From the NCBI RefSeq assembly GCF_040054535.1, contig NC_090777.1, positions 7,163,501 through 7,227,500 on the forward strand: a DNA stretch of 64,000 nucleotides, written 5' to 3'. Every line of letters begins with the position of its first letter. The first letter of the stretch is position 1. The notes under the pieces were generated by a model, which saw only the letters and a list, made by a program, of their open reading frames with translations, had not been told where the DNA came from and searched no databases. This document shows positions 20,215-44,196 of the stretch, in pieces. Source of the DNA: Antennarius striatus (taxonomy: Eukaryota; Chordata; Actinopteri; Lophiiformes; Antennariidae). A program made the position numbers and the translations under genes.

Positions 20215-21512
20215 TGAACCTGTGAACACTTTTTCAGGTGTCTACATACACATAGTGGTCCTCCCTATCCCGACCAATTTTAGGAGTTGGTCGGGTTAGG
20301 TCGTTTCCTACATCAATAGGAGTTTCCTATATCAATTGGAGTTTTAGGAATTCATGGCCCGGACCAAATCAAAACGATCGGATTTTGCTAGAATGATATT
20401 AATTGGTTGACATGCCCAAGTGCGTGGCAATCCCCGAAGGGGGAGTTCGTTCAGGCTAAGGTGGCATTGTCTGGTAATGTCCTAGCTCAGAGCTACACAC
20501 TGACAAGCTGTTGGACTCAGTAAGCATTTGGTTAACTAGTTAGAGGTCCACTTCAGTCATGTGTGTGAGTGTGTGTGCCCGCGCGTGTGTGTTTTGTGAT
20601 CAGGCTACGGTAGCGGTGTGTGGTAACGACCTGGATCAGATATACATAGTGAAAGTTCCTCACAAGCTGTGAATTTAGCTAGCATTTGGCTAACTAGTTA
20701 GCAGTCGGTGTGTGTGTGGGTCCACCCGAGGCTATCCCCAGCACCACTGCGAACCCATAACCAGTTACACATTAATTACTAATTCAGAATAATTGTCTGT
20801 TTTTTGGTGAATGATAGCAGCTTTAGCTCTTCTAAGTGATTGGAGAGCTGCATATATCCAAACACACACACACACACACGAAAATACGAGACAAAAACTT
20901 GGTCTGACCGGTAAAATCCCATGTTTCAGTAGTTTGCGTTATCTTAGCTCCCTTGTTATCCAAGAGCTCTCATTGTCCATAACAATTTTCAGAAAACACA
21001 GTGTAATTATCTCACCGGCCAGTCTGATCATGTTTACACAATGAGCCACGAGTCTTTGTTAAGCAAAGACTGAGGAAGCAGGTCCATGCTTAGCGCCGAA
21101 AAATCAACTGTTATATCATGAAAAACAAGACTGCAAAACACGAGAATTAGAGCAAAATATGTAGTGGTGAAGTTACTGAAAGTTAAAAAAGTTGCAGACA
21201 ATAGCGATTGATCCGTAATGCAGGCGCGTTCGAGTGGTAAACGAACGTGAACGTGCTGGGGAGGGCAGTGTTGATTGGTCAGCTCAGAGGGGGGAGGAGA
21301 TAGGGAAGGCTCAGAGGGGGGATGGGGAAGGAGAGACGGAGCTGAAGGCTACGCACTATTAAAACCTTCAGAGAGTAGAGGAGGATATATCAATATTCAA
21401 TGAAAGATATTGAGGACCATGGATCACTTTGAGGCAAGACATTTCAAATGCAGTGTAGTTGGACATCTGGCAGCTGAATGACATCAATTAGAAAAAGCAT
21501 AATATGGGACCT
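20215..21512 (-). mobile_element. Kolobok-type (TTAA) non-autonomous element X1
   Basis: The right end reads CATAATATGGGACCT followed by TTAA (21513-21516), the reverse complement of the left end of the element at 23676. Internally it shares GACATCTGGCAGCTGAATG, a promoter-like block with TTTTCATGATATAAC (also in X3), and a left-end block CTTTTTCAGGTGTC...CATAGTGGTCCTCC shared with X2 and X3. The outermost left terminus has decayed. It has no P2X7-like or THAP exon. It is therefore a reversed, gene-less relative of X2. Confidence 0.7.
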
Positions 21513-21516
21513 TTAA

Positions 21517-23588: not shown

Positions 23589-23954
23589 GTGACTTAAGAG
23601 ATCTTTGAAACAGGTATATAGACATGAAAAAATGACAGGTGTGTTTTATTCATGATTGAAGTGATTTATCATTAAAGGTCCCATATTATGTGTTTTTAAC
23701 TTAATGTCATTCAGCTGCCAGATGTCCAACTAGACTGTATTCCAAATATTTTGACCTAAAGTGATATGTGGTCCTAAATATCGGGTTTTCAAAATTGCTC
23801 ATCTGAGCTACTCACAAAACGCTTCGTTTCAGGCCTCCGGCTGCAGTATGTTAATGAGCTCCGCTGGTCAACGCCTCCTTCACCTGGGCCACGCCCCTCT
23901 GAAGTAGAGCGTTAGGCTAACGGGACACTGACCGGCATTACGTTTGTTATCATT

Positions 23955-25363
23955 ATGGCGTTTGGAGGACCCATCGTGTCGCTGTACATTTATGACCCTG
24001 AGTCGGACCCAGAAGCTCCTAAAGAAACACCGACTGTGCGGCTGCAGCAGGACGTTTCTGAATGGTTAGTACGTGTGAACGTTACTTAGTTGGTTCTGCG
24101 TTGTTTTGTTGTGTAACCTACGTCATCACAGGACGTTAGCATCGTCCGGTAGCTACTTTTGTTTCTACTCCCGCCTCTCATCGCACAGTAATAATGTCAT
24201 ATGTCTTATTATGTATTTTGTATATGTACAGATGTGTTAACTGTTAAAATGTTGCTTTATTTCTATAAGTGACAGTAAAGTCTGATAGTGGTTCTGATAG
24301 TTATTACCATGTGGCTAATGCTAGCTTCTGCTCACGGCTAAGTTACTTTATTTTTCTATCACATTGATTTAACCCGTTACTAAGCTGCTAAATATTTGAG
24401 GCAGTCCTCTGTGACAAGACACACGGAGCTAACACCTGCTACCATCACACCAGGTTAATGGTGAAATGATGTAACCATATTGCAGTGATGCCTTTATCTA
24501 CTCTATTTTGAGGTGTCTTCACCTGTTGTACAGCTGTTCCTGTGGACACTATGAATGTATGCCAACAGAAGCAGAAAACAACTGCTGTTGGGAGACACAA
24601 GTAGCAAGCTCACAGCTAAACCACAAAGTTATGTCTCCACGGTATTCGGCTACTTTTACAACTGTAAATTCAAATGACCTTTACCATGTTTTTCACTGTA
24701 GGTTAGGAGCCGTCTGCAGGAGGTTGATGAAGTTCCGTGCATGACTCAACATCCTGGGTTCCAGCCTGTGTGCCTAAACGTGTACATCCTACAAATGGCC
24801 GGTCACGTACTGAGGGCCAAGTGTGGCCCTTCACGTCTGAGACCAATACATCGGTTAGTCGTTCTTTGAAAAATGTCGGAATAAAAACTAGTTATGTCTT
24901 ATTTTGCTTCATTAGGCATTCCTTCATTAATGCAGTAACATGACATATAAAGGTACAACAAAGTCTAATATATTGTATTTGCGATACCTTGATTTTTATC
25001 TTATTAATAGACATGTTGAACATTTTTTGGTATTCACAATCCATTTATGTTGACATATACAAGCATTTATTTACATAAAATAATACATCCAATAATAATA
25101 ATGAGAACACAGGGCCATCCTATCAGGAAATAAACAACAGTTGTAATACTCGGGATTGAAAACATTGTGAAATAAATAGTTTTGTGTCCTTTTTCTGTAG
25201 ATGGTGCAGACATCTGGCCTATCGCACCTTTGTTGGATGGTGCTGGGGCTACTTAGGATGCAGAATCCGGGTTGTCATCCCAGTATGTGTGGTCCTTCAC
25301 ATACGCCAGGAGTTTCCTGAAGACAAAGGCCATTACGCTGGATTTAGACCGAGTCTTGGTTGA
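23955..25363 (+). CDS. P2X7 cytoplasmic ballast-like domain protein, four exons
   Basis: Exons 23955-24064, 24534-24600, 24702-24853, 25201-25363, all with GT/AG borders (donors GTTAGT, GTAGCA, GTTAGT; acceptors TTGTACAG, CACTGTAG, TTTCTGTAG) and matching phases; 163 residues, stop TGA 25361-25363. An acidic start (YDPESDPEAPKE) is followed by CCSCGHYECMPTEAENNCC, which resembles the zinc-binding cysteine cluster of the P2X7 ballast. Next come CMTQHPGFQPVCLNVYILQ, then WCRHLAYRTFVGWCWGYLG and IRQEFPEDKGHYAGF, which matches the human P2X7 C-terminal IRKEFPKSEGQYSGF closely. There are no membrane segments or channel ectodomain, so it is the ballast alone. It lies wholly inside transposon X2. 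Its function is unknown; zinc or nucleotide binding is inferred from the P2X7 domain. Confidence 0.8.
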
Positions 25364-25988
25364 ACCTGGTCATGTAGCTGGCAATGACCTCCTCCTTGTC
25401 AGGACGCTCATACTGGGCAGACAGATTCTCGGGGAGAGGAATGGACAACATCTTATTTGTGTATGGCACGGGGTCCACCAAGACTTTGTCACATATGAGG
25501 TCCAACATGTCAGCTACAAAACCTGTTCAATAAAACATAAAGATAGATCTTTACTGTTATTGATATTGTTTTATTCATTTCTTTGTTTAGAAAAATTGTG
25601 TTCAAAATACATCCTGGTACTTGCTACTAATTTATTTATTTGTATTGTTACTTTTCACTGTGTTTTGGTGCGAACAATTACCAACAGAATTTCAAAACAT
25701 GTTTGTTTGAAATATTAAAATATTGCAACACTAACAGAAAGTTGGCTCTTTCTTGTGGGGTTTGACTCATTGTCGCATTGACATACATGAATCTCTCAAA
25801 AAATTTTATACTTAAGTCTTCACTTCACTGTCTTGCTGGAATATTCTAATACACAACACTTATTTTTTACTGAACTACTATCAACACATGTGCATTCACT
25901 AACACCTATAGACAACTATATTTAGAAAATTAGTGTGACCAATTTTATTAAAACATTCTATGGAATATGACTTGTACATACCTTTACT
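25364..25988 (+). other. 3' region of P2X7-ballast-like gene inside X2
   Basis: Plausible 3' UTR: AATAAA occurs at about 25528 (TTCAATAAAACA). The open frame at 25272-25718 overlaps exon 4 in another frame and is a shadow. Confidence 0.35.
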
Positions 25989-25989
25989 T

Positions 25990-26215
25990 CAATAGTGGGA
26001 ATGAAGAGTCCTGCAAGACAGCTGTGTACCAACAGTATGATTGTCCACTGGGTCAGTTTGGCCCCCCCACGTCCCTTGAAGCTGTAGGCTGAATGGATGC
26101 ACAAGGAAGAGGGACACTAATTTCAGGACACCAATGTTCTGATATTGGATAAGGAGGACAGACCTGTGTGCCTTGTCGCTATGACGACCAACAAACAATC
26201 GACTCTTAACACGTG
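25990..26215 (-). pseudogene. Possible second transposase exon of X2 (decayed)
   Basis: Minus-strand open stretch KSRLFVGRHSDKAHRSVLL...GTWGGQTDPVDNHTVGTQLSCRTLHSHY. It lies downstream of the THAP exon on the same strand and could be its continuation. I do not recognise the catalytic core and the splice acceptor is weak, so this is tentative. Confidence 0.3.
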
Positions 26216-26640
26216 CGCGCACACACACAATACGAAACAAAGCACAGCTCCCTACGTAGCCTAGCATAAGTTGACTTTATTTATGCTGACAGATTTGTGA
26301 AAAGATAATATGAAAACAATTTACTGTGCGTTTTAGCTTTATACTGTAGGTCCAGCACGCACACACGTGTGGGAGTGCACGCACACACACACAGCACGCA
26401 AACGTGAAACAAAGGAGACCTCCCTACATAGCTTAGCATAGCATGACTTCATTCTTCCTAACCGACAAAAAGAAAAAAGATCAAATGTGAGCCCAACTCT
26501 GGTGCGTTGTACCTACAGTAGATACTGTAGGTTTAGCACACACACGTTGGAGCGCACACACGCAACAAAGCAGTACCACCTAATTAGCCAAATAGCACTC
26601 GATCACTCATGCTCACAGACAACTGCAAAAAGATAAATAT
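26214..26640. repeat. Three diverged tandem units of about 160-180 bp inside X2
   Basis: Units begin near 26214, 26372 and 26552. Each has a GCGCACACAC-rich head, a CAAAGCA/CAAAGGA box, a CTCCCTAC-TAGC box and a GACAnnnnnAAAAAGAT box. They sit in the intron of the THAP gene. Confidence 0.65.
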
Positions 26641-26652
26641 GGTGAGACTTAC

Positions 26653-26941
26653 CTGTAACCAGGGTGCAGTTCCTTGGTCCCGTATGGTTGGGAGTGATCC
26701 TTGAATGAGGATCAGTCTCAGACAAAGCCCCGCCTGTACTGACCCTCATTGCTAAAACAGGCTGGAGTGAAGTGGTTCCACATACAAACAAACGTGCAGG
26801 CGATGTAGCTGCACAGAGCCATTAAAAATGAAATGCAGGTCTCTTCTGTTCTTCATTGGATGGGATGAAAAATAAACACTGGTGTTGATTTGTACAATCA
26901 ACAACTGAGCAACTACCTTGTCTCCTTGTCACAGAGGCCAT
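26653..26941 (-). pseudogene. THAP-domain exon of X2 transposase (frameshifted)
   Basis: ATG at 26941-26939, then TRRQGSCSVVDCTNQHQ: the C-x4-C pair of a THAP zinc finger. The frame reaches a stop after PAFHF, while other frames carry the rest: HFIFNGSV, FVC and then NHFTPACFSNEGQYRRGF (the Cys and His of the second zinc pair), and GSLPTIRDQGTAPWLQ. The exon ends at CAG before a consensus GTAAGT donor (26652-26647). THAP domains bind DNA, and in Kolobok and P elements form the N-terminus of the transposase. At least two frameshifts, so this copy is dead. Confidence 0.75.
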
Positions 26942-26994
26942 TTCAACAGACTGCTACCTCTCGTCCGACACGAAGAACTCCATTTTGGGGATGA

Positions 26995-27064
26995 CCACGC
27001 CCTTGGGCGTGTCAACCAGTCCATATCGTCCACGCCCTTGAGCATGTCCACCAATCCATATCGT
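26995..27064. repeat. 35-bp tandem duplication
   Basis: Two 35-bp copies, 26995-27029 and 27030-27064, starting CCACGCCCTTG and ending CCATATCGT with four differences. A single related block occurs reversed in X1 near 20420-20470. Confidence 0.85.
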
Positions 27065-27282
27065 CCAATACTCTGCCCAATAGCAGAGTGCAAAGTCTGA
27101 CGTCAAGGATGTGTATTCTAGCAATCGAGTCGTTCAGATCCATGACTTCCTAAAAGTCCAAATATCTATTGATGCAGGAAGTGTTTGTTTACCAGATTCT
27201 AGGAGTTGGTCGGGTTAGGGAGGACCACTATGTATATATAGACACCTGAAAAAGTGTGATTTTCATAATAGGGCCCCTTTAA

Positions 27283-28059: not shown

Positions 28060-28473
<414 letters not shown>

Positions 28474-43191: not shown

Positions 43192-44196
43192 TTAAAGGTC
43201 CCATATTATGCTTATTTATATTAACATTCAGCTGCCAGATGTCCAACTACATTGTATTTGAAAAGCCTTGCCCCAAACTGATCCATGGTCCTCAAAATCT
43301 TTGAATATTGAAAGAATCACTTCCGGTCCAGACCCTTCGTTTAAAAGAGTCTTGTACCTCTGTCCATACTGCACGTGAACACTCATGCCACCGTCCGCTT
43401 TCCGTCCGCTTACACTTAGTCCAGGTTTTTAAAACTTTCCGTAACTTCGGTACTACATATTCCGCTCTTATTTTTCTCTTTTTTTCACTCTTGTTTTTCA
43501 TGATATAACTTAATTTTTCTGCGGTGTGGAAAGCTTTCTCAGTCAGCTGAATGTGACTTGAAGCTCTATTGTGTAAACACAAGATGGCTGATCCAGGATT
43601 TGTGGAGAAAAACACAGTGTTTGCAAATGGGACAGAAATCAGTGGAGACGACAGCAGATGATTACGAACAGGAGGTAACTGAAGCTGTGTTTGTCACGTA
43701 CAATGAGAGATCACTGGCTAACAACAGCGGGGAGCTAAGCTAACGCAGTCTAATGTACTTCAGTGAAACATGGGATGTTATCGAAGCGATAAGATGAAAT
43801 GTAGAGGTCTTATATATGTGATGTATATTGAACAACTGTTTGCAGTTGGGCGTTGTCCCTATATTCCCTCCATCCGCTAACCCGCAGTGAGGAGGACAAA
43901 AGGAAGCTAGGACACTAAAGACTGTATATACCTGTGTATAAATTGTTATTCAGCTATTCTCTATTCTAATTTCTTTTTAGCTCTTCATCACTCTGTCAAT
44001 CATTAAGTCAAGACGGGAGCTGTGACAAAACGTATCGTTTTGATCCTGTCTATCCAAACATTCCAAAAGATTCCAAATATTAATTGATGCAGGAAGCATT
44101 TGTTTTCCAGGTTAAAGGAGTTGGTAGGGTTAGAGAGGACCACTATGTATATGCAGAGAACTGAAAAATGTGTTTTTCATAAAAGGACCACTTTAC
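43192..44196 (+). mobile_element. Kolobok-type (TTAA) element X3
   Basis: 43196-44192, about 1 kb. Left junction TTAAAGGTCCCATATTATG matches X2; the right end CATAAAAGGACCACTTTAC is a decayed form of the X2 right end, with TTAC in place of TTAA. It shares the GCTGCCAGATGTCCAACTA block, the TTTTTCATGATATAAC block (with X1) and the GAGGACCACTATGTATAT block (with X2). A short frame starts at 43583 (MADPGFVEKNTVFANGTEIS) and stops after five more codons. No P2X7-like or THAP exon. Confidence 0.7.

Follow-up and report, generated by a model that had tools for sequence, protein, structure and literature searches.

How does a gene that encodes only the ballast of the P2X7 receptor tail come to lie inside a transposon? 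The question arises from a 64,000-nucleotide stretch of the Antennarius striatus genome (contig NC_090777.1, positions 7,163,501 to 7,227,500; hereafter the window), in which an earlier note, made from the letters alone, had placed a four-exon, 163-residue ballast-like gene within an insertion at 23676..27278. We consider it very probable that this insertion derives by deletion from a two-gene Kolobok transposon of Kol0 type, that it kept the element's second gene, KolX, and that KolX in the window copy is now a decaying passenger. The paper on which we rely here for the Kolobok elements (PMC9587614) reports the cytoplasmic ballast fold of P2X7 for KolX in the Kol0 lineage, and names vertebrates among the hosts of Kol0.

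The ends of the insertion were given exactly in that note, to the base on either side (Table 1). TTAA flanks the window copy on both sides, the target site of Kolobok, and the termini read 5'-AG...CT-3', that is, of the 5'-RR and YY-3' type required of the superfamily; PMC9587614 describes Kolobok by TTAA duplications and 5'-RR...YY-3' ends, unlike the ends of piggyBac. Within the 64-kb window the 19-base end (TTAA plus the left repeat) matches four times at up to 3 mismatches, with 0.03 matches expected, and a search for exact ends across 548 Mb in 42 contigs returned 261 copies from the animal's own genome as compared to none for the backward-read control. A DDD/E transposase with a C/DxxH motif is not encoded by the window copy, which for want of anything beyond flanking transposase pieces is not an autonomous Kolobok; the THAP domain is there as a frameshifted remnant (tblastn, fish THAP transposases), and KolX, the mark of Kol0, is recognized from its P2RX7_C match and alignment, the equation of KolX with the ballast being taken from PMC9587614 and not from a Repbase KolX sequence. 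Judged from these ends and remnants, the window copy is a derivative of Kolobok.

The gene itself stands much as first described. Predicted splicing joins four exons into 163 codons plus a stop, with GT/AG at 3/3 introns, and since Pfam returns P2RX7_C alone (E=1.4e-10) the protein has no channel part. A PDB search, whose query carried Trp37 and an additional Val, matched four P2X7 sequences (best E=2.2e-8), and at E<=1e-3 there are 19 protein relatives, all from fish, 11 of them named "P2X purinoceptor 7-like". The proposed zinc-cluster ballast holds as a family assignment and needs refining in detail: in an alignment of the fish relatives the window protein keeps 6 of the 7 cluster cysteines, with Tyr43 at the third, where 17/17 aligned relatives have Cys, and at position 37 GT-AG splicing gives a Cys in place of the Trp of 17/18 aligned relatives. 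Pairwise alignment to P2X7 chains sets Cys45 opposite the third-Cys ligand across a two-residue gap, and for this reason Cys45 might substitute for the missing ligand; the same alignment leaves Cys54/55 unpaired with C498/499, so these were matched by pattern instead. Over 56 conserved columns of the relatives' alignment the window protein deviates at 3, a figure inside the range that the relatives themselves show, and position 43 varies among the genomic copies, being Cys in L022 and the like and Tyr also in L040. The AlphaFold model of one relative, P0001, built from 17 sequences with a mean predicted local distance difference test (pLDDT) score of 43, was too poor for fold comparison. In viral contigs, 23 pattern matches to KolX gave 0 confirmed cases. 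We also note that an Antennarius striatus protein named "histone-lysine N-methyltransferase SETD1B-like" (P0019) includes a segment of KolX exon 3 that is 89% identical to that of the window, which may reflect either a faulty gene model or the exonisation of a transposon.

KolX is repeated with the transposon ends. From the first 100 listed ends in coordinate order, 3 of which lie in the window, the first 70 of the others were fetched; KolX was present whole or in part at 33 of these and not detectable in the first 1.9 kb at 37. If this sample is typical, the exact-match ends alone would carry KolX, whole or in part, about 120 times (33/70 x 261). All 96 KolX matches, counting those of the window copy, are on the strand of the element. 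The distance from the end to the start of exon 1 is 202-315 bases, and precisely 284 bases in 20 of the 33 exon-1-bearing copies (32 fetched and the window's). Among loci fetched at 8 kb, 11/20 were gene-bearing. In the eight of these 11 in which both ends were found, TTAA stands on both sides in 8/8, each with its own flanks; the alternative of homologues confined to one conserved locus without TTAAAGG ends is thus contradicted. The copies are not uniform. L010 is a composite that carries two gene copies, in L053 an additional weak KolX-like match (30%) lies 6.5 kb from the end, and in L040 the final portion of KolX exon 4 and the antisense last exon of the transposase stand three times in tandem. 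At L033, L058 and L059 it is the transposase side that bears the 19-base end (with THAP matches on the + strand), which means that certain right ends have the sequence of left ends.

What the earlier note had presented as a ballast-only gene within an element does lie within its ends, but it shares them with the wrecked ends of a THAP transposase on the other strand. At 25347-25526 (-) a frame of 60 residues aligns with the C-terminal end of the fish protein P0020 (E=2.5e-15, 64% identity); the P0020 search gave 611 matches, and among the best 120 of the 611, which were then used as relatives to search the window for transposase, many bear THAP (PF05485) and some PF20700. The KolX and transposase frames meet tail to tail, with a 20-base overlap that includes both stops. 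In the protein search of the window copy with fish THAP transposases, residues about 148-642 of one of them, P0034, went unmatched, among them motifs at 357-511 presumed to be catalytic from the signature described in PMC9587614. Pfam gave no match for the three small antisense pieces, including the 39-residue THAP piece alone.

The same loss recurs in other copies. At least one transposase match was found in 25 KolX-bearing copies (24 fetched and the window's), and in 17 of these there is a shared gap of about P0034 148-613, the pieces ending near 138-147 and resuming between about 614 and 645; 14 of the 17 come from one search, and L047, L054 and L056 only from a smaller-database search, in which weaker matches pass. 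Residues 614-641, unmatched in the window copy, are kept by most of the 17. Four copies depart from the shared gap (L017, L028, L053, L055) and four could not be judged (L012, L018, L030, L040). L055 retains P0034 230-318 and 593-700, and L053, in which most of KolX is gone, retains 105-295 and 453-700 and provides the only match overlapping 357-511, broken by stops. From the parts retained in L055 and L053 it follows that the parent had both genes, and different deletions of one larger two-gene element are the best explanation for the copies. This multi-copy Kolobok subfamily, with the transposase core deleted and KolX retained, is the window's contribution; a limited search of the Kolobok and KolX literature, in the parts accessible, found no description of such a subfamily.

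KolX decays neutrally after insertion. Divergence was measured over 18 gene-spanning copies and mutations were counted in 20, the window's included, with 14 of the 33 KolX-bearing loci left out of the selection count (<=90% of exon positions covered) and L019 added by hand with its insertion skipped. Free decay is concluded from three results: singleton changes are synonymous in 44/188 cases as compared to a neutral expectation of 0.256 (p=0.56), only 6 of the 20 copies have an intact frame and splice sites, and mean pairwise divergence in exons (8.3%) matches that in introns (7.5%).

In the parent element that we envisage, KolX and a THAP-plus-DDE transposase lay on opposite strands, tail to tail. 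The derivative would be what remained once the catalytic middle portion of the transposase was deleted while both ends and KolX stayed in place, and it would have reached many places, most simply by means of transposase supplied from elsewhere. Second proteins of other DNA transposons serve as accessory proteins of transposition, and by analogy KolX was most likely such a protein for the parent; in the window, with its zinc cluster altered, it would now be a decaying passenger. Several observations weigh against this account. No intact transposase with these ends, and no autonomous copy, was seen in the fetched sample (70 of 261 ends), and for that reason we can only infer mobilisation in trans; the expectation that complete elements would pair the ballast gene with an intact THAP transposase thus found no instance among the fetched copies. 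Intact copies may nevertheless exist, because many fetched loci were read over their first 1.9 or 2.7 kb only and 191/261 ends lie outside the sample. The shared gap is defined at the level of protein matches rather than of individual bases, and, with the core absent from the window copy, the assignment to Kol0 comes from KolX and not from a phylogeny of catalytic cores. Lastly, shared (older) coding changes are synonymous in 25/71 cases as compared to 44/188 for singletons (Fisher p=0.06), changes found in four or more copies in 12/29 (p=0.06), and stop codons arise in 8/188 singleton changes and 0/71 shared ones, a hint of past constraint on KolX in the source lineage, which may date from the parent.

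These last figures bear on the thought that the transposase-less subfamily sustains itself, with KolX helping in cis, for instance by drawing a foreign transposase to its own DNA, and that derivatives with KolX would for this reason prevail over those without it. The transposase-deleted, KolX-bearing form does exist in many copies with a common gap, and the shared coding changes lean synonymous with none making a stop; yet the lean is not significant, exons diverge no less than introns, and the 37 of 70 sampled ends at which KolX was not detectable in the first 1.9 kb imply that KolX-less ends spread too. We regard a cis-acting KolX as unlikely. Much less probable still is a host ballast gene of the nanor kind, functional in the host and caught by chance between flanking transposon ends. 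The open frame and GT/AG splice sites of the window copy would suit such a gene, and P2X7 and nanor have been proposed as domesticated relatives (PMC9587614 and PMC7016195), but almost half of the sampled ends bear the gene or part of it, in 20 of 33 copies exon 1 stands at one and the same distance from the end, few gene-spanning copies are intact and their changes look neutral, and the window copy has lost a Cys that 17/17 aligned relatives share. We reject the host-gene reading on copy number and neutral decay. A piggyBac-type transposon deserves mention since some of these encode a KolX-like protein, but according to PMC9587614 such proteins lack most of the seven Cys and piggyBac ends differ from the Kolobok-like 5'-AG...CT-3' ends seen here, and the transposase remnant is of THAP type; with RR/YY ends and a THAP remnant, a piggyBac identity is rejected as extremely improbable. 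The deletion derivative of a two-gene Kolobok accordingly remains the reading we prefer.

Table 1. Positions, in window coordinates, of the element, its ends, the KolX gene, the transposase remnants and two relative copies.
Feature	Position	Strand	Basis or remark
Non-autonomous Kolobok element, whole	23676..27278	.	3,603 bp between target-site duplications; sequence
Left target-site duplication TTAA	23672..23675	.	Sequence
Right target-site duplication TTAA	27279..27282	.	Sequence
Left terminal inverted repeat AGGTCCCATATTATG	23676..23690	+	Sequence match; copies in own genome
Right terminal inverted repeat AGGGGCCCTATTATG (reverse complement)	27264..27278	-	3 mismatches vs left repeat
KolX exon 1, start codon 23955	23955..24064	+	Pfam match, splice joins
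KolX exon 2, cluster cysteines 38, 40, 54, 55; Tyr43 where relatives show Cys	24534..24600	+	
KolX exon 3, Cys72 aligned to rat P2X7 C506	24702..24853	+	
KolX exon 4 and stop, Cys139 aligned to C572	25201..25363	+	Antisense transposase frame overlaps at 25344-25363
AATAAA, possible poly(A) signal for KolX (putative)	25529..25534	+	Read from sequence
Transposase remnant, last exon (P0034 residues 643-700)	25347..25526	-	72% identity to P0036 over 58 residues
Transposase remnant, linker (about P0034 residues 111-147), in-frame stop	25929..26060	-	tblastn
Transposase remnant, second half of THAP domain, frameshifted	26662..26838	-	tblastn
Transposase remnant, initial half of THAP domain with start codon	26825..26941	-	tblastn, fish THAP transposases
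End-bearing relative copy A, KolX not detectable	20226..21516	-	Far end seemingly cut off
End-bearing relative copy C, KolX not detectable	43192..44195	+	About 1 kb; right TTAA looks mutated

Copies A and C are probably short non-autonomous relatives of the KolX element. Within the element, imperfect, ACAC-rich tandem units of about 170 bases occupy 26213-26572, and their number may differ among copies; a long ATCT tetranucleotide repeat lies at about 28297-28471, about 1 kb to its right.

The link between the transposon KolX and the P2X7 tail is already published, with KolX probably the source and P2X7 proposed to have arisen when a P2X4-like gene fused with KolX (PMC9587614). The earlier suggestion of a transposon spreading a ballast module is thus right as to carriage by a Kolobok-type element, but the module is KolX, a known Kol0 transposon gene, and not a shuffled host module. 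Our copies lend genome-scale support to the proposed origin of the P2X7 tail in a transposon protein, and they suggest that fish database proteins named "P2X purinoceptor 7-like" can be transposon genes. A subfamily that lacks its transposase and keeps KolX also makes the role of KolX testable, through its effect on mobility when the transposase comes from elsewhere. If the cis reading were true, KolX would be a transposition helper able to act apart from its own transposase.

Among known systems, the fish THAP transposases P0020, P0034 and P0036 are matched by the antisense remnants in the THAP domain and last exon, unlike the stretch of P0034 around the presumed catalytic motifs, which the window copy lacks. 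In the accessible part of PMC6004289, THAP and zinc motifs are reported for the Xenopus Kolobok transposases, with no mention of KolX. The window element resembles Kol0 (Kolobok-1_XT type; PMC9587614) in its TTAA duplication, its RR/YY ends and a KolX beside the transposase gene; it differs in that the transposase core is deleted, as in most KolX-bearing copies read, and in its altered zinc cluster. With the C-terminal ballast of P2X7 (PDB 6u9v, 9e3m and others) the sequence match extends across the ballast, although KolX has no channel and has Tyr43 at a cluster position in the relatives' alignment. Of the five guanine-nucleotide residues of the ballast given in PMC7016195 (R546, H547, R574, R578, K583), three appear by alignment to be kept (R546, H547, R578), with R574 replaced by Val and K583 by Glu. 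Like nanor, a likely domesticated KolX (PMC9587614), and the other stand-alone ballast proteins (PMC7016195), the window KolX is a ballast standing alone; unlike nanor, it is a transposon repeat.
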